Shown here one piece after another: positions 11,355 through 29,825 of a DNA stretch of 33,922 nt. The DNA comes from Clostridiaceae bacterium. GTDB taxonomy: Bacteria > Bacillota > Clostridia > Acetivibrionales > Acetivibrionaceae. The notes under the pieces were generated by a model. The model did not search any database, was not told the DNA's origin, and saw only the letters and a program-made list of their open reading frames with translations. The DNA lies in NCBI GenBank assembly GCA_012519925.1, contig JAAYPF010000085.1, forward strand, positions 1 through 33,922, given 5' to 3'. Each line of letters begins with the position of its first letter. Position 1 is the first letter of the stretch. The translations under genes were made by a program, and so were the position numbers.

Positions 11355-11658
11355 TACCTTACTTCCTGATAAATCCATTAATTTTTTGATGCTTATATTA
11401 TATATCATCCTATTAGCCACTACAACCCAAAATTTACCTCAGTCTTAATATATAATGCTAACTATATCTTAGTATTGCCCATTTTCAAATTTCATTACTA
11501 TAATTTTTAATAAATCACCGGGAATTTTGCATTGATTTTTCGCTTGGTCTACATTCCCTATTGTTGTTCACAGCGTTCTTTCTGTAATAATGCCTTTACA
11601 CTGCTGTGAATTGTGCTTTCATTTGAAGGTTATTGATGAAATCAATGTACTTTCTTTT

Positions 11659-11699
11659 ATAAAAAAAACAGAACACCGCAATAAATGCGATATCCTGTT
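11659..11699 (-). terminator. Rho-independent terminator of the wall-binding protein gene
   Basis: On the minus strand AACAGGATATCGCA pairs with TGCGGTGTTCTGTT over all 14 positions (three G-U) around a five-base loop, followed by eight T. It lies 75 bases after the stop at 11775 and would end that transcript. Confidence 0.85.
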
Positions 11700-11774
11700 C
11701 ATTTCTTTAATCAGGTCTTTTCAAAAAAACTATTTATCAAATCAATTTTTTGAATTACCTTATTATAATCTCTT

Positions 11775-12860
11775 CTAAAAGCCATTCTTTTGAGACCAAT
11801 TTGCGGCCTCTTTTATTGCCTTTTGATGATTTGAATCCACCTTGTTAGTGCCATGGGTTCTGCTGTTTAAAAAGTGAATATCAAATACACCGCTCATATT
11901 GTTTCCTTTAACTGCATCAAGATTATCTCCACCGCCATATCCACCGCTTCTCTTGCTTACATATGTATTAGCGGGTGAACCTTCTACTCCGGCATGAGGC
12001 ATTCCTGCCATTGAAGCTGCTAATTTACGTCCGTTTACAGTTATAATAACAGGTCTTCTTTCCCAACTCCAATCGCCGCCGTAAATACTTTTCATTATTT
12101 TGGTATCTTCTGCGGTAAGTGTCTCACAATCCGCATGGTTGTAACCATATGTTCTTTTTATTTTAAAAGTGCGCCCGGTCCTGATATCGTATACTTCTGC
12201 GATATCACCTTTTTTAAAAATATTTTCCGCTCCTCCATACCACGAAACAAGATAATTACCGTTTCTGTCAGTACCACCTCTTGATAAGGTCTCTTCTGTA
12301 GTAGAAGCTTTTGTTCCTAATAACTTGCTTATCTTAGTTAAAGTCACATTCCCTGCTATTCCATCCTGTGTGAGTCCATGAGCCTTTTGAAACTTCTTAA
12401 CCGAATCCTTTGTAAGACTCCCGTAATAGCCTGTAGGATTTACACTAAAATAGCCAAGCTTCTTTAGGTCCTTCTGCAGTTGTGTTACTCTAGTTCCATT
12501 CATACCTTCTTTTAAAGCACCTGTACTGCTTTCTGCTCTAGAAACAGTAGTGGTTCTTGCATCCAATAGCTTGCTGATTAAAGAAAAGGTTTTACTTCCA
12601 GCGATGCCATCACTATCTAAGCCGTTGCTTTCCTGAAGTCTTTGAACTGCTGACTTTGTAAGACTTCCATAATAGCCTGTCGAACTAACTTTCAGATAAC
12701 CTAAAGTTCTTAAGTTATCCTGAAGTAATGTAACATCGTTTCCTTCCATTCCTTCCTTTAATACTCTTGATGCTGCGAAAGTCTGAATTGAGCATAAAGA
12801 AAATATACTCACAAAACAAACTACTAAGGCTGTCAATAACACTGCCTTTTTCTTTAGCAT
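11775..12860 (-). CDS. Secreted protein with two peptidoglycan-binding domains
   Basis: The 361-residue protein starts at ATG after GAGGGGGG and has a signal peptide ending near FAA (residue 30). Two PG_binding_1 repeats follow at about 33-100 and 114-182, each with the pattern LQ..L..LGY, TGYYGSLT and DGIAG. A serine/threonine-rich linker leads to a C-terminal domain (about 200-361) with WYGGAENIFKKGD, YNHADCETL and a GVFDIHFLNSRTHG segment. That domain occurs beside PG-binding repeats in other clostridial proteins and may be a wall hydrolase or binding unit; its His/Asp/Cys residues are suggestive, but no reaction is proven. The 5' leader is a c-di-AMP riboswitch, placing this wall protein under second-messenger control. 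A strong terminator follows, so the gene is monocistronic. Confidence 0.88.
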   Translation of the reverse strand: MLKKKAVLLTALVVCFVSIFSLCSIQTFAASRVLKEGMEGNDVTLLQDNLRTLGYLKVSSTGYYGSLTKSAVQRLQESNGLDSDGIAGSKTFSLISKLLDARTTTVSRAESSTGALKEGMNGTRVTQLQKDLKKLGYFSVNPTGYYGSLTKDSVKKFQKAHGLTQDGIAGNVTLTKISKLLGTKASTTEETLSRGGTDRNGNYLVSWYGGAENIFKKGDIAEVYDIRTGRTFKIKRTYGYNHADCETLTAEDTKIMKSIYGGDWSWERRPVIITVNGRKLAASMAGMPHAGVEGSPANTYVSKRSGGYGGGDNLDAVKGNNMSGVFDIHFLNSRTHGTNKVDSNHQKAIKEAANWSQKNGF

Positions 12861-12865
12861 TTAAT

Positions 12866-12985
12866 CCCCCCTCAAAGCTTACGAGGTTAGTTGACGGGTT
12901 AGGTGGAAGAGACACCCTTCCGAACTTCCGGAATTAACCCCAAGAAAATATCCCCCGTTTCTCTATATTTTATATAGAGAATTCA
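12866..12985 (-). promoter_or_regulatory. Cyclic di-AMP (ydaO-yuaA) riboswitch
   Basis: The minus-strand leader carries the core blocks of the ydaO class in order: CGGGGGA (12952-12958), TTCTTGGGGTTAAT, the variable GGAAGGGTGTCTC arm, ACCCGTCAACTAACC and CTCGTAAGC (12877-12885). A perfect CTCTATA/TATAGAG hairpin precedes it (12961-12979). ydaO riboswitches bind two c-di-AMP molecules and usually turn off wall-hydrolase or potassium/osmolyte genes. No terminator lies between the aptamer and the start. The aptamer's 3' CCTC can pair with the GAGG of the Shine-Dalgarno only nine bases away, so control is probably at translation (inference). Confidence 0.9.
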
Positions 12986-12990
12986 GCAAC

Positions 12991-13516
12991 ACAAGTGTAT
13001 CATTATTTGCAATAAAAATAAATACAAAAATAATACCAAGAGTATTAACTTATGTACAATTCAAGTGTGCGCCTTTCTCTTGCCTCTATATTTTATACAA
13101 TTAATTAGGATATGTAAACACTTTGATTGAATTTGACACCCTTTTAGGTCATTTCAAAAAACAGCATATAGTATATTTAGGTAACTAAGCTCATAATATC
13201 TAGTTTTTAAAGGATGATTTACCCGTTGTTTTTTGGAGACTTTTTTACTTTAATCAAACTATCGTAGTGTTTACATGGAATATTTAGGATTCATAACTTA
13301 TAATAATGAAGAAAATAATATTTGAATACCGAATAATATAATTCTGAGTTCTTGAGACTAAGTCGTGGTATGTTATATTTTTTCCATAATATATAAAGGA
13401 TTTTTTTAAACAGTATTGAATATAAATAAATAGTACTCGAACAATCACCTATGTATTTCTTAGAAATGGCTAAGCAACTTACATAATGACAAGAATTGTG
13501 AAAGGATGGTCCTTAT
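12991..13516. other. Divergent intergenic region between riboswitch gene and nucleotidyltransferase
   Basis: This AT-rich 526-base gap separates divergent transcripts. It must hold the promoter of the riboswitch leader (leftward) and that of the nucleotidyltransferase (rightward). Copy B of the dispersed repeat lies inside. TATAAT-like hexamers occur near 13300 and 13340, but I found no convincing spaced -35/-10 pair. No open frame looks real. Confidence 0.5.
13165..13243 (-). repeat. Dispersed intergenic repeat, copy B
   Basis: In plus sense it reads TATATTTAGGT, AACTAAGCTCATAAT, TAGTTTTTAAAGG and CCCGTTGTTTTTTGGAGA. It aligns with copy A over about 80 bases with many substitutions and with copies C and D only over the inner part. 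It is the most diverged copy in the CCAGTT core (here CCCGTT). Confidence 0.5.
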
Positions 13517-15961
13517 ATGAAAGCAATTATAATGGCTGGTGGCGAAGGATCACGATTGCGTCCTCTTACATGTGACATGCCTAAGCCTATGGTACCAGTG
13601 ATGAATGTACCAATAATGGAACACATAATCAATTTACTAAAATCACACGGTATAACCGAGATAGGTGTCACTTTAATGTATTTGCCCCAAAAAATAAAGG
13701 ACTATTTTGGAAACGGATCTCACTTTGGAGTTAATATCCATTACTTCACAGAAGATACCCCCTTAGGAACTGCGGGCAGTGTTAAAAATGCCAATGATTT
13801 TCTTGATGAAACTTTTATCGTAATTAGCGGTGATTCACTCACAGATATGGATATTACCAAAGCCGTAGAATTCCATAGATCAAAAGAATCAAAAGCCACT
13901 CTGGTTTTAACAAGGGTTGACGTACCCTTAGAATATGGTGTCGTCATTACTGACAAAAAGGGTGCAATAACCGGTTTCCTTGAAAAACCAAGTTGGAGTG
14001 AGGTTTTCAGTGATACAGTAAATACCGGTACTTATATACTAGAACCGGAAATAATGGATTATCTTGAGCAAGGAAAAAAGACAGATTTCAGCCAGGATTT
14101 ATTTCCCTTATTGCTTGAAAAAAAGGATCCTATGTTTGGGTACATCATGTCTGATTACTGGTGTGATATCGGAGACCTTCAGGCGTATCTTCAAGCTCAC
14201 TACGATGCTCTTGAGGGTAAAGTAAAGCTAAATATAGATTTAACTGAGATCAAAAAAGGTGTTTGGGTGGGCTCTGGTACCATTATTGATTCTCAAGCAG
14301 TACTAAATACTCCCTGTTTAATAGGTGACAATTGCCGTATCGGAAGTAAGGCTGTAATTGATAGCTTCAGCATTTTAGGTAACAATAATGTGATAGAAGA
14401 TGAAGCAAGTATTAAAAGAAGTGTGCTGTGGAACGGAAACTATATTGAATACGGTTCTGAAATAAGAGGAGCCATACTTTGTAATAAAGTTAATCTAAAG
14501 CATTATGTGCGTATATTTGAAAACGCAGTAGTAGGAGATAATTGTATAATAAATGAAAGAGCTATTATAAAGCCCAATATAAGCATTTGGCCCCAAAAGA
14601 CGGTGGATTCATTGGCAATTGTTGACAGAAATATCATCTGGGGTTCAAGACATTCTAAAACAATTTTCGGTGAAAACGGTCTGTCGGGTATAATTAATGT
14701 TGATATTTCACCTGAGTTTGCAACCCGTTTAGGAGCGGCTTATGGTTCTATATTCAAGAAAGGTTCAAAGGTTATCGTAAGTTCAACAACTTCTAACTCT
14801 GCAAGAATGTTCAAACATGCCTTTATTTCCGGAATGCTCTCTGTTGGGGTGGAGGTATTTAACATGAGTAGTTTGCTGACCCCCATTTCTAGGCATGCTA
14901 TCAGTTTCCTCTCTGTTGAAGGAGGAATACATATAAAGCTAAGCGATGACAATCCAAACAAACTTAGAGTAGATTTTATGGACGCAAAAGGTGCAAGTAT
15001 AAGTAGGGTTATGGAACGAAAAATCGAAAACTCCTTTTTCCGTGAAGATTTTAAGCGCTGTTCCGGTGAGGAAATCAGCCGGTTAAATAATATAACTGAT
15101 TTCAAAAATTACTATGTAAGGTCCATTCTTAATGAAATTGATACCGATGCAATTAGGAGCAATTCTCCTAAAATTTGTATAGTTTCACCTTCGGATTTTG
15201 TTATATCTATAGTGGTTCCTATGCTCACCGATCTTGGATGTAAAGTTGCAAGTTTCTCATCTTCTAACTTGAATGAAATTGACACCATCGTGGATGAAAT
15301 CAAAAGTAGCGATGCAAACTTTGCAGCCTTTATAGACAGTAATGGGGAAACCCTTGTCCTAATTGACAAAAACGGTAAAATAGTAAAAGATGATCTATTC
15401 ATCTCACTTACTTCCCTTATTTCTTTTAAGACTAATCCTGGTTCAAAAGTAGTTGTGCCCATAACTGCTCCATCAGTTATAGAGATTATGGCTGAGAAAC
15501 ACAAAGGAAAAGTTGTACGTACAAAAACTTCACCTCAAGCCGTTATGGAGCAAATGCTAAATCACAATCTTTTTAAGAACAGGGATAACATGGATCAATT
15601 TCTACTAAACTTCGATGCTCTTGCAGGACTTATTAAAATTCTTGAATTCTTATGCATGAAAAATACAACTTTATCTGATATACTTAAAGAAATCCCAGAT
15701 TTCTATGTGAGCAAGAAGAAAATCTTCTGTCCTTGGGAATTAAAAGGGCGAGTAATGAGAACTCTAATAACCGAGAAAAGTGGTGAAAAGGTAGAGTTGC
15801 TCGACGGTGTAAAATTTATACTAGAAAACGGCTGGGCACTTGTTCTCCCAGATGCCGATCTTCCATTGTGTAGGATATATTCGGAGGGAGACACACCAAA
15901 TGTCGCCGATATAATTTCGGAAAAATATCTAGAAAAGATAAAGGCGATTATTAATTTATAA
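13517..15961 (+). CDS. Sugar-phosphate nucleotidyltransferase with hexapeptide repeat and degenerate phosphomannomutase-like domain
   Basis: The 814-residue cytosolic protein has three parts. Residues 1-235 are a nucleotidyltransferase: [18 protein letters not shown] and PKPMVPV bind NTP and catalyse transfer, GDSLTD supplies the metal-binding Asp, with FLEKP and NTGTYIL further on. Residues about 250-370 are left-handed beta-helix hexapeptide repeats. Residues about 380-814 resemble phosphoglucomutase/phosphomannomutase. The family is annotated as mannose-1-phosphate guanylyltransferase-like and makes NDP-sugars for glycans. In the third part the phosphoserine loop reads KLSDDNP in place of TASHNP, and the metal loop normally DGDxDR reads IDSNGET, so mutase activity is doubtful. 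An AAAGGATGG site precedes the ATG. A terminator follows, 11 bases before the next start. Confidence 0.88.
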
Positions 15962-17156: not shown

Positions 17157-17990
17157 TTACTTACCAATAAATTGCTGCACTAGCATTTTGCCATATTTTG
17201 AGCTCTCCACAATTCCAATTCCTGTGTAATTAAATCCAGAATTTAGAATATTCTTTTTATGTCCTTCTGAATTCATCCAAGCCTTAAATGCTCCTTCTAC
17301 AGTTCTATTCCCTGCTATGTTTTCTCCTGCTGTTTTGAAACTTATGCCAAACTGTCTCATCATATCAAAAGGTGAACCATAAGTTGGGGACTGGTGGGAA
17401 AAATAATTGTTGTCCACCATATCTTGTGCCTTTGTTTTTGCTACTTTCATAAGCTCTTCATCAAATTGAAGCGGTCCCACACCTGCTTCTGCCCTAGCCT
17501 TGTTCACCAGTTCAAGTAAGGTTTGGTCATCTTGACTTACACCTTTAATAGGCGTAGTAATAACAGCCGACGGTCCCTTTGGCGTAGTTACAACCTTCGG
17601 TGCCGAAGTCTTCGTGGTTCCTGTTGTGCTTTTCGGTGGAGTTGTTGCCTTTACCGAAGTTGTATTCTTTGAATTTGCTGATGCCGACTTTATATACTGC
17701 CCTGATACTGTACCTACACACCTTGTCTCCGGTTCATAAATCGCATACCAATCCCCTATTTTTCCCAAAACATTTACCCACTGATTTTTCTTAAGTACAC
17801 ATATAATAGGAAAATTTGTAGAAGGTCCCTGCCTAACATTTAAAAGCGATGCCGTCACAACCGCTGAAGTAAAATCAACACTTTCAAAAGTCGGAGCAGC
17901 ACAAATCCTACCGGTATCAAAGGCTGTAAAGCCCAACCCCATTGTAAATACAAATGCTAAAATAATCAATACGACCAATTTCCTATTCAT
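17157..17990 (-). CDS. Secreted SH3-CAP (SCP/PR1, YkwD-like) domain protein
   Basis: The 277-residue protein starts at ATG six bases after GGAGGG and has a signal peptide (MNRKLVVLIILAF..., to about 31). A bacterial SH3 domain follows (about 40-105: ASLLNVRQGPSTNFP, W near VLGKIGDWYAIY), then a Thr/Pro/Lys-rich linker, then a CAP domain (about 150-277). The CAP domain carries LVNKARAEAGVGPL, the His of YFSHQSP, AGENIAG and the WMNSEGHKKNIL motif with the second His and a Glu. SH3 domains of this kind bind peptidoglycan. CAP domains in spore-formers are surface proteins of uncertain chemistry. It is monocistronic and shares the downstream terminator with the convergent gene. Confidence 0.9.
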   Translation of the reverse strand: MNRKLVVLIILAFVFTMGLGFTAFDTGRICAAPTFESVDFTSAVVTASLLNVRQGPSTNFPIICVLKKNQWVNVLGKIGDWYAIYEPETRCVGTVSGQYIKSASANSKNTTSVKATTPPKSTTGTTKTSAPKVVTTPKGPSAVITTPIKGVSQDDQTLLELVNKARAEAGVGPLQFDEELMKVAKTKAQDMVDNNYFSHQSPTYGSPFDMMRQFGISFKTAGENIAGNRTVEGAFKAWMNSEGHKKNILNSGFNYTGIGIVESSKYGKMLVQQFIGK

Positions 17991-27322: not shown

Positions 27323-28405
27323 TCAGATCCTTCTTGTATCTAAGAAAAGTTGTTCCTGTACCCTTCTTAGACCTTCTTTTATCATTCTCGCTCTTACTTC
27401 TCCGATTCCTTCAACTTCATCAAGCTCATCTATTGTAGCATTTATTATACCTTGGAAGTTGAGAAATCTGTCCACTAAATTCTTTATAACCGATAGAGGT
27501 ACTCTTGGAATTTTGCTAAGTAGTCGATATCCCCGTGGAAATATAGCCGTATCAAAGGCATTTGCTCCCGGGTCAAAACCTAATATCTTGCATATGTTTG
27601 ATATCTCCATAAGTTCATCAAAAGAAAGTCGTCTTAAATTTTCTTGCATTTGTTCCGACGTACTGTTGGAGTTTTGCACCATATAATCTTCAATAATAAG
27701 AATTTCATCACCATCAACATTTGCCAAAAGTTCATCTAACTGCATAGTTAAAAGTCTAGCTTCATTTCCAAGTTCACATATGTATTTTTCCATCTCTGCT
27801 GCAACCCTCATAACCATCTCTATTCTCTGAATTACAAAAGCCACATCATCTAGCGTAACTATATCTTCAAATTCCAACACGCTTAGGTTGTTCACAGCAC
27901 TATCCAAAACATTTCTGTACTTTTCCATTGTCTGCAAAGCTTGATTAGCCTTCGTCAAAATCGCGGAGCTCTCTTTTATAATATATTTTCTAGCCCCTTT
28001 ATATAGAGTAATAATATTTCTTCTCTGCGAAATACTTATTACAATTTCTCCAGTTTGCTTTGATACCCTATGTGCAGTTTTGTGTCTTGTACCCGTTTCA
28101 TCGGTATAAATTGAAGTATCCTGTATAAGCATGGCATTTGCGTAAAGTATCTTCTTGAGATCTTTACTCAATACTATTGCTCCATCCATTTTGGCCAATT
28201 CATAAAGATATGCTTGGGAGTACTCTTTATTTATAAAAAAGCCTCCATCCACAAGTTTCAATATCTCTTGAGAATCTCCAACAACTATAAGTGCTCCAGT
28301 TCTTGCTTTCAAAATGCTTTCTAAGCCTTCCCTAAGAGGTGTTCCTGGAGCAACCATACGCAACACTTCAAGAAATTCAAAATCATTATTCTTATCTTTG
28401 CCCAT
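27323..28405 (-). CDS. disA: DNA integrity scanning diadenylate cyclase DisA
   Basis: Start at ATG 28403-28405, seven bases after GGAGGG, gives 360 residues, the usual DisA length. The N-terminal DAC domain holds KMDGAIVLS (DGA motif) and GTRHKTAHR (RHR motif), the residues that condense two ATP into c-di-AMP. A helical linker follows (about 150-280), then a C-terminal RuvA-like helix-hairpin-helix domain that binds branched DNA ([18 protein letters not shown]). DisA forms octamers that scan DNA and slow c-di-AMP synthesis at Holliday-like junctions. It is 55 bases after radA with no terminator between, so they are probably co-transcribed. A c-di-AMP riboswitch in the same window provides a candidate target. 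Confidence 0.97.
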
Positions 28406-28460
28406 TAACAGACCCTCCATAAAGCCATACTATGGCATTGATGATATAGTCGTAGAAGTA

Positions 28461-29825
28461 TTACAAAAGAATCCCTAATGCTTCTACAACATTTTCCACA
28501 GGCTTTATATTTATTTCTTTTAGCTCCTTAACTTGTTTTAATACCTTAATATTTCCTGCTGGTACAATGCAGTTTTTAAAACCCATTCTTGCAGCTTCAA
28601 TAACTCTCTTTTCTATCTGATTTATTGCCCTAACTTCGCCCGTCAACCCTACCTCACCTATAAGCACTGTACTTAAATCTATCGGCTTGTTTCGAAAGCT
28701 AGAAGCGATTGCCATTACAACACCTAGGTCACATGCAGGTTCATCAACTTTTAGACCTCCAACCACATTTACATAGGCATCATAGTTATGAAGTTGCATA
28801 CCAACACGTTTTTCTAATACAGCCATTAGTAAAGTTATTCTATTATAATCAATCCCTGTTGCCATTCTACGCGGCATTCCAAAATTGGTAGGGCACACAA
28901 GAGCTTGAATCTCTATAAGCATTGGTCTTGTTCCCTCAAGGCTTGACACAACCACCGACCCTGGAACGCTCTCTTTTCTATCTGAAATCATCAACATTGA
29001 AGGGTTCTCAACCTCAATAAGTCCTACATCCTTCATTTCAAATATGCCAATTTCATTGGTTGACCCAAATCTATTCTTTACAGCTCTCAATATTCTGTAG
29101 CTTAGGTGCCGTTCTCCTTCAAAATATAAAACGGTGTCAACCATGTGCTCTAAAACCCTTGGTCCGGCTAAAGAGCCTTCCTTTGTCACATGTCCTACTA
29201 TAAAAACTGCTATATTGCTGCTTTTTGCGATTTGCATTAGACCTGCCGTAATCTCCCTAACCTGACTTACGCTACCCGGTGCAGAGGAAAGCTCCTCGTT
29301 AAACATGGTTTGTATGGAGTCAACAATTATAAGAGCAGGGTTCTCCCTCTCACTTATAACTTGAATAGCTTTAAAATTTGTTTCTGAGACCATTAACAGA
29401 TTCGGATTCCTTACACCTAATCTATCGGCTCGAATCTTGATTTGCTTTATAGATTCTTCACCGGATATATATATTATTTTGGAATCAATTCTAACAGTAT
29501 CACAAATTTGCAGGATCAGAGTGGATTTACCAATACCCGGATCACCACCCACGAGCACAAGTGAGCCTTTCACAATACCGCCACCTAATACGCGGTCCAT
29601 CTCCTTAATACCCGTAGAATATCGCTCTTCATTGTCTATTTCAATATCATTGATATTAACAGGCTTTACATCAAACAGCACATTTTTATTTTTTGAACCT
29701 ACAGACGCGTCTTGGATTTCTTCGGCAAAAGTGTTCCAATTATTACATGCTGGGCACTTCCCGAGCCACCCGTTACTTTCATATCCGCAATCCTGACATA
29801 CAAAAACTGATTTTCGTTTTGCCAT
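28461..29825 (-). CDS. radA: DNA repair protein RadA
   Basis: The 454-residue protein has the N-terminal four-Cys Zn finger (Cys10, 13, 24, 27: CQDCGYES, KCPACNNW), a RecA-like ATPase core with Walker A GGDPGIGKST, the RadA signature VKNRFGSTNEIG, and a Lon protease-like C-terminal domain (from about 290, with DYNRITLLMAVLEKR, NVVGGLKVDEPACDL and GEVGLTGEVRA). RadA is a hexameric helicase promoting branch migration in recombination. In Bacillus it interacts with DisA and limits c-di-AMP output, and the gene order radA-disA matches that. The ATG is preceded by GGGAG. Copy D of the dispersed repeat lies just upstream. Confidence 0.97.
   Translation of the reverse strand: MAKRKSVFVCQDCGYESNGWLGKCPACNNWNTFAEEIQDASVGSKNKNVLFDVKPVNINDIEIDNEERYSTGIKEMDRVLGGGIVKGSLVLVGGDPGIGKSTLILQICDTVRIDSKIIYISGEESIKQIKIRADRLGVRNPNLLMVSETNFKAIQVISERENPALIIVDSIQTMFNEELSSAPGSVSQVREITAGLMQIAKSSNIAVFIVGHVTKEGSLAGPRVLEHMVDTVLYFEGERHLSYRILRAVKNRFGSTNEIGIFEMKDVGLIEVENPSMLMISDRKESVPGSVVVSSLEGTRPMLIEIQALVCPTNFGMPRRMATGIDYNRITLLMAVLEKRVGMQLHNYDAYVNVVGGLKVDEPACDLGVVMAIASSFRNKPIDLSTVLIGEVGLTGEVRAINQIEKRVIEAARMGFKNCIVPAGNIKVLKQVKELKEINIKPVENVVEALGILL

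Follow-up and report, generated by a model that had tools for sequence, protein, structure and literature searches.

The leader of a gene for an export-like, peptidoglycan-binding protein in Clostridia DNA is confirmed, by its match to a covariance model, as a predicted c-di-AMP-sensing riboswitch of a known type. This leader is likely to be an OFF switch at the level of translation. Its loop-tail pseudoknot has the Shine-Dalgarno sequence (SD) in the tail strand, and since tail strand and SD coincide, a ligand-stabilized aptamer would hide the SD. As judged from a comparison of leaders across the order and the class, it appears to mark a widespread translational version of the c-di-AMP riboswitch that is used for exported wall proteins. 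A broader statement is less certain and still fairly probable as a whole: the genome would show both modes of this riboswitch, orthologs in sister genera would have eroded or lost the aptamer, and the product would carry an unnamed, possibly catalytic wall-associated domain. The leader lies in a stretch of 33,922 nucleotides from a Clostridiaceae bacterium, which we call the window.

A cmscan search of the whole window gave a single above-threshold Rfam match, to RF00379 (c-di-AMP, ydaO/yuaA), at positions 12998-12861 of the minus strand. It scores 78.9 bits (gathering score 38) with an E value of 6.1e-17. The alignment spans model positions 1-134 of 134, and the conserved core blocks GGGGU.AA and ACCCGUCA.CUAACCUCG are visible in it. 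An earlier sequence-only reading had placed a c-di-AMP riboswitch at 12866-12985 and had named a search with the ydaO family model as the check; the search supports it, as this interval falls inside the match. The parts of the leader and the neighboring features are listed in Table 1.

Table 1. Features of the c-di-AMP riboswitch leader and its surroundings in the window
Feature	Position	Strand	Basis
c-di-AMP riboswitch aptamer (RF00379), full length	12861..12998	-	78.9 bits, model 1-134
Predicted pseudoknot loop strand GUCUCUUCC	12905..12913	-	GUCUCUUC is the loop side of the best-scoring loop-tail helix
Predicted pseudoknot tail strand GAGGGGGGAU, contains the SD	12864..12873	-	GGGGGGAU is the tail side of the best helix
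Conserved aptamer 3' block ACCCGUCAACUAACCUCGUAAGC, includes the CCUC of the alternative pairing	12877..12899	-	RF00379 alignment
-10-like AUGAUACACU / ATGATACACT element	12994..13003	-	Alignment of 11 leaders
Regulated gene: export-like N-terminus, two PG_binding_1 stretches, uncatalogued C-terminal domain (361 aa)	11775..12860	-	ORF and profile matches
C-terminal 175-aa stretch with the uncatalogued domain, invariant R, H, D, E	11778..12302	-	40-member alignment A3, AlphaFold2
disA, c-di-AMP synthase; a neighbor, not part of the switch	27323..28420	-	NF010009 497.5 bits, cut-off 201

The -10-like AUGAUACACU aligns with AUGAUACAAU or similar sequences in sister genera (11 leaders). If the element at 13003-12994 is read as a -10 box, the transcript would begin at about the first aptamer base. 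The element is absent from the list given by a consensus promoter scan, which found 8 sites against 7.6 expected, i.e., no excess over chance. The promoter-like region is still alignable across the intact, eroded and missing leaders described below.

On the other side, the ATG of the regulated ORF directly adjoins the aptamer: its first base, 12860, is next to 12861. The product matches PG_binding_1 with 127.4 bits (cut-off 23). The suggestion that the switch controls a wall protein thus held, as an export-like protein with two PG_binding_1 repeats is encoded right behind the aptamer. A second exported protein, with SH3_3 and CAP domains (YkwD family), is encoded nearby at 17157-17990 and has no RF00379 match.

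The window's own genome (3.9 Mb) has three RF00379 matches. Besides the window copy, one aptamer stands directly before the gene of a protein with PG_binding_1 and NLPC_P60 (L003; 57 and 128.3 bits, cut-offs 23), and another precedes dapB (TIGR00036, 219.8 bits, cut-off 122); a terminator-like hairpin separates this aptamer from its gene. We compared these leaders with those of the order, for which 58 genomes were tallied. A match was present in 56 of them; 144 of the 182 matches, mostly the best-scoring ones, were examined, and 143 leaders were counted (L069 has no anchor and was excluded). Distances were measured from the CTAA block of the aptamer to the gene start. Gene starts were called by a simple rule based on ORF and SD, which seems to have mis-called two leaders, L127 and L134, that resemble the dapB type.

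The distance from aptamer to gene start is bimodal in these 143 leaders: 81 lie at 25-40 nt (abutting leaders), 57 at 71 nt or more, and five have no called gene. An export-like N-terminus was found in 78 of the 81 abutting targets vs five of the 62 others by a crude hydrophobicity rule, which also accepts membrane proteins and is not specific to secreted ones, since 8 of the 22 window ORFs pass it. L110 is an abutting leader whose target lacks an export-like start. Ten abutting targets, hand-picked from the 81 and mostly represented by their first 220-235 residues only, were scanned against Pfam, and all are wall-associated (PG_binding_1, NLPC_P60, LysM with Hydrolase_2, or SH3_3). A start pattern like that of DapB is matched by 31 of the 57 long-distance targets; several others read similarly without matching it. 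One NlpC-type gene (genome G002) has a leader, L050, that carries an insert, as its aptamer match is 244 nt long vs 142 nt in the window's genome; the end that abuts the SD is kept.

The two groups also differ in terminators. Terminator-like hairpins within 160 nt of the aptamer occur in 3 of the 81 abutting leaders vs 41 of the 62 other order leaders. In the window, a scan of 11600-13600 revealed no minus-strand terminator-like site between aptamer and gene; the sole site on this strand, 11700-11666, is past the gene end. The lack of a terminator reported by the sequence-only reading is therefore upheld.

These data bear on the possibility that the window leader acts at the level of transcription, i.e., that the ligand favors termination or Rho access and the SD overlap is secondary. 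The class does work in this way at the kdp operon of Bacillus thuringiensis, where a c-di-AMP riboswitch is described as acting via termination (in the part of PMC6488665 used here), and the dapB copy of the window's own genome has its terminator-like hairpin. Given the empty interval in the window and the rarity of such hairpins in abutting leaders, two of the three being the seemingly mis-called dapB-type leaders, we regard transcriptional action as improbable.

A draw of genomes at the class level gave a similar picture. It comprised 148 genomes, 49 with a match, and yielded 83 places outside the order, of which all but the three weakest (80) were used. The script was nearly the same as for the order, with the anchor searched 3 bases further. 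Export-like N-termini were found in 34 of 36 abutting leaders vs 7 of 44 others. Terminator-like hairpins were found in 4 of 36 abutting leaders (L201, L210, L214 and L229) vs 13 of 44 others, which also speaks against transcriptional action; with only these 13 of the 44 non-abutting leaders having such a hairpin, the class set gives weaker backing to the terminator side of the split. The four leaders, as well as L127 and L134, were kept in the counts. The p-values of Fisher tests are extreme, but we do not lean on them since the leaders are related.

The split suggests that one RNA sensor is used for wall-active secreted proteins at translation and for precursor synthesis (dapB) mostly at transcription. 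In this way c-di-AMP would be linked with both the turnover and the supply of the wall.

In the window leader the SD sits 5-6 nt upstream of the ATG, and five of its six bases fall within the best loop-tail helix. This helix joins GUCUCUUC of the loop (12913-12906) with GGGGGGAU of the tail (12871-12864) by 8 pairs, several of them G-U, and the G run in the tail permits alternative registers of the pseudoknot. We assessed the pairing by scoring the best helix between the loop segment of each leader and its own tail, and then permuting the tails among leaders. The abutting leaders of the order score 6.37 vs 5.53 permuted (71 distinct leaders), and the other order leaders 7.07 vs 6.13 (50 distinct). 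In the class set the scores are 6.31 vs 5.41 for abutting leaders (35 distinct) and 7.00 vs 5.74 for the others (43 distinct). The observed score was reached by 0 of 2000 permutations in each of the four groups. At least three of the six SD bases are covered by the best helix in 57 of 71 abutting leaders of the order and in 19 of 35 of the class; the remaining 14 and 16, respectively, fall short of three.

The permutation result is inflated because the leaders are related to one another. As a control of kinship, the leaders were thinned greedily by aptamer identity, with loop and tail excluded; single-linkage clustering had no power as a control, as nearly every leader fell into the same cluster. 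With the leaders thinned to less than 75% identity outside loop and tail, each mode had a median of 0 of 1000 permutations. A limit of 70% (n 13-18) gave medians of 5 and 2.5 per 1000 for the two modes, with worst draws of 39 and 36. For the abutting leaders, this strictest thinning (n 14-18) corresponds to a median of 5 and a worst draw of 39 per 1000.

According to PMC5393176 (in the part used here), the crystallized ydaO RNA contains a stable pseudoknot. Of its sequence as printed there, CUCCUUCG lies in a loop and CGAAGGAG in the tail; in our reading, these two segments are the pseudoknot strands. In the proposed mechanism, binding of c-di-AMP would stabilize the aptamer together with its loop-tail pseudoknot. 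With the SD locked in the pseudoknot, the 30S subunit would be kept away and the secreted wall-binding protein would not be made. When c-di-AMP falls, the tail would be freed and translation could begin. The contrast between on and off could be small, since much of the SD is base-paired even before ligand binding: in the nested fold of the ligand-free window leader the mean unpaired probability of the SD is 0.18, and 0.32 is paired with the CTAACCTCGT segment. The mean unpaired probability over nested ensembles of 79 abutting leaders (L127 and L134 omitted) is 0.42.

The sequence-only reading had likewise favored translational control, and this part is likely to stand. It had pointed to the closeness of the CCTC of the 3' block to the GAGG of the SD, and this pairing shows little or no covariation. 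The corresponding model has the opposite sign: in the absence of the ligand the CCUC would pair with the SD, and the ligand would lock the CCUC into the aptamer and free the SD. The two segments are indeed complementary, the hairpin is present in the predicted nested fold of the window leader, and the mean pairing probability of CCUC and SD is 0.32 in this leader, 0.49 in L049 and 0.44 in L050. This probability exceeds 0.5 in just 7 of the 79 leaders (nested ensembles). By permutation, the abutting leaders of the order score 3.99 vs 4.02 (1509 of 2000 reach the score and 322 of 2000 the duplex energy), while the class set is weakly favorable to the pairing (3.97 vs 3.82; 65 of 2000 reach it). 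Covariation can reveal little about the CCUC, which is nearly invariant, and the evidence it gives against the pairing is weak. Two further points argue against translational ON control: the ligand-bound aptamer would keep the SD inside the loop-tail pseudoknot anyway, and published accounts treat c-di-AMP riboswitches as OFF switches (parts of PMC9960051 and PMC6488665). We consider the ON model unlikely, if slightly less so than transcriptional action. The CCTC:SD hairpin as a switch was dropped, given its little support by permutation and partition function and the limit that CCTC invariance sets on the test. The aptamer's own loop-tail pseudoknot seems to explain the masking of the SD better than CCTC pairing.

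The type of the window riboswitch is already known. In comparison with the ydaO/yuaA class (RF00379) in general, the window leader has the same full-length, above-threshold match, the conserved core blocks and the loop-tail pseudoknot. The prototype of Bacillus subtilis and the kdp copy use a terminator, as far as the consulted parts of the literature go, whereas in the window leader tail and SD overlap, and the scan gave no terminator between aptamer and gene. The leader is also close to the nlpC riboswitch of Corynebacterium glutamicum, which has no canonical terminator and a cell-wall target and for which translational OFF control by c-di-AMP is published: c-di-AMP represses a reporter through it with an unchanged mRNA level (PMC9960051, consulted in part). 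Its authors suggest that a CTCC pairs with the GGAG of the ribosome-binding site (RBS) in a pseudoknot. That system differs from the window leader in phylum and gene, and in the consulted part of the paper the pseudoknot is a suggestion for future work, to which the question of how the riboswitch acts on translation is also left, whereas for the Clostridia leaders the pseudoknot is backed by the permutation tests above. A review of 2024 counts ydaO among the classes in which the aptamer, once bound to its ligand, docks with the expression platform and conceals the RBS. It also describes SAM-II, preQ1-II, preQ1-III and cobalamin riboswitches, which keep the RBS in a pseudoknot or a docked helix when the ligand is bound (PMC10907184, consulted in part). 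The latter have other ligands and folds; the likeness is in the mode of action only. Thus the translational mode is known in principle, and the OFF sign of the window riboswitch is what we infer.

Among the papers listed for c-di-AMP riboswitches, other than the founding ones of 2013-2014, none states the split between targets and modes in its title or abstract opening. The comparison of leaders yields a direct prediction that can be addressed by mutation, namely the pairing of the loop strand 12905-12913 with the SD tail 12864-12873.

The sequence-only reading had drawn a loop from DisA and RadA through c-di-AMP to the wall protein, as disA lies 15 kb away. The neighbor is indeed DisA by the NCBIfam equivalog cut-off, and RadA adjoins it at 28461-29825 (TIGR00416). 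The sequence-only reading gave the DisA motifs as DGA and RHR; DGA is present and the second motif reads RHK. The loop itself is unsupported. The same genome encodes a second synthase, CdaA (TIGR00159, 273 bits, cut-off 188.8), and the proximity to DisA is seen only inside the genus. The gene and DisA are about 15-16 kb apart in the window genome (G000) and in G001, and about 29 kb apart in G002. Elsewhere on one contig the distance is about 97 kb (G007), 229 kb (G013) and more than 1 Mb (G003 and G004, each); in the remaining family genomes they do not share a contig or one of them is absent. As the distance is far larger in sister genera, the 15 kb look like local gene order and not like evidence of a circuit. 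Outside the window, DisA was assigned from the score group of DAC matches, and CdaA-type synthases were inferred likewise.

Of the 13 family genomes that have an RF00379 match, seven (G003, G004, G007, G008, G009, G012 and G013) encode a CdaA-type synthase at a distance of 4-8 kb from one. Six of these seven leaders precede a dapB-like gene; the first called gene of G004 is not dapB. If any synthase keeps company with the c-di-AMP riboswitch in this family, it would be the CdaA-type one.

Orthologs of the regulated gene with the C-terminal domain are present in 12 of the 14 family genomes, the window's own included, with at least 69% identity. A set of named genomes has 26 loci of the gene; the two sets overlap, since seven named loci share their leader with a family genome. 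The named relatives are the basis for calling the group Clostridia. In the three genus members examined (g1) the aptamer is directly before the gene, with 72-79 bits. Four orthologs of a sister genus (g2, L011-L014) have no RF00379 match at E 0.1 and retain TTG(C/T)TG(A/G)ATTCT and the first hairpin; in two of these four leaders CTCGTAAGC is found near a G-rich SD. In G011 (L015), which belongs to g3, CTCCGTAAGC is kept near the SD and only parts of the aptamer remain. The other g3 orthologs (L007-L010) have neither an RF00379 match nor a visible remnant; L007-L009 were also aligned.

At the named loci, 20 of which were scanned at the gathering score and six at E 0.1, RF00379 matches were found in 8 of 26. 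Six of these, including those of Clostridium tunisiense and C. punense, are within 7 nt of the called start. L181, L182 and L186 come from a separate lineage of this gene: L186 matches with 40.4 bits, L182 retains the 3' block only, and L181 has no match and carries extra sequence before its CCTCGTAGGC block.

Aptamer loss in the sister genera seems to be the simpler reading of this distribution. One could then view the window aptamer, too, as a non-functional remnant heading to the eroded state, as in the four g2 orthologs and G011, which keep aptamer parts only, and beyond them the four other g3 orthologs. The window copy has its core blocks intact and scores 78.9 bits, within the 72-79 bits of its genus, which makes a remnant highly improbable. 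The orthologous genes, with leaders that are intact, eroded or missing, form a series for studying riboswitch loss; of the papers that a search on riboswitch loss or decay listed, none concerns the RF00379 class by title and abstract.

The C-terminal domain of the regulated protein has no name in the databases searched. The stretch of the window member has no Pfam match at E 0.1, and among the 40 members of alignment A3 the Pfam matches are only weak (three members, best E 0.024; two members, best E 0.0033), as are those to PHROGs (one or two members). NCBIfam likewise gives the region no name. A search of PDB by sequence found nothing for the single domain sequence, and the profile reaches E 1.4 only. 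The AlphaFold2 model of the domain has a pLDDT of 91.9; an earlier model built on 12 sequences (pLDDT 67.5) was set aside. Foldseek found no match to the model at E 0.001 in PDB or BFVD. The best Z values of VIA-align, 6.4 and 6.2 (NP_954075.1 and the c-di-GMP-binding VCA0042), are uninformative, being under the Z of 8 that its notes treat as possibly only a common arrangement. Eight residues are invariant in A3 (R50, H56, D58, E60, D66, H103, H150 and H159, in the numbering of the 175-aa stretch), and our guess is that the domain may be an enzyme. One or two additional matches to the domain are present in 11 of the 14 family genomes.
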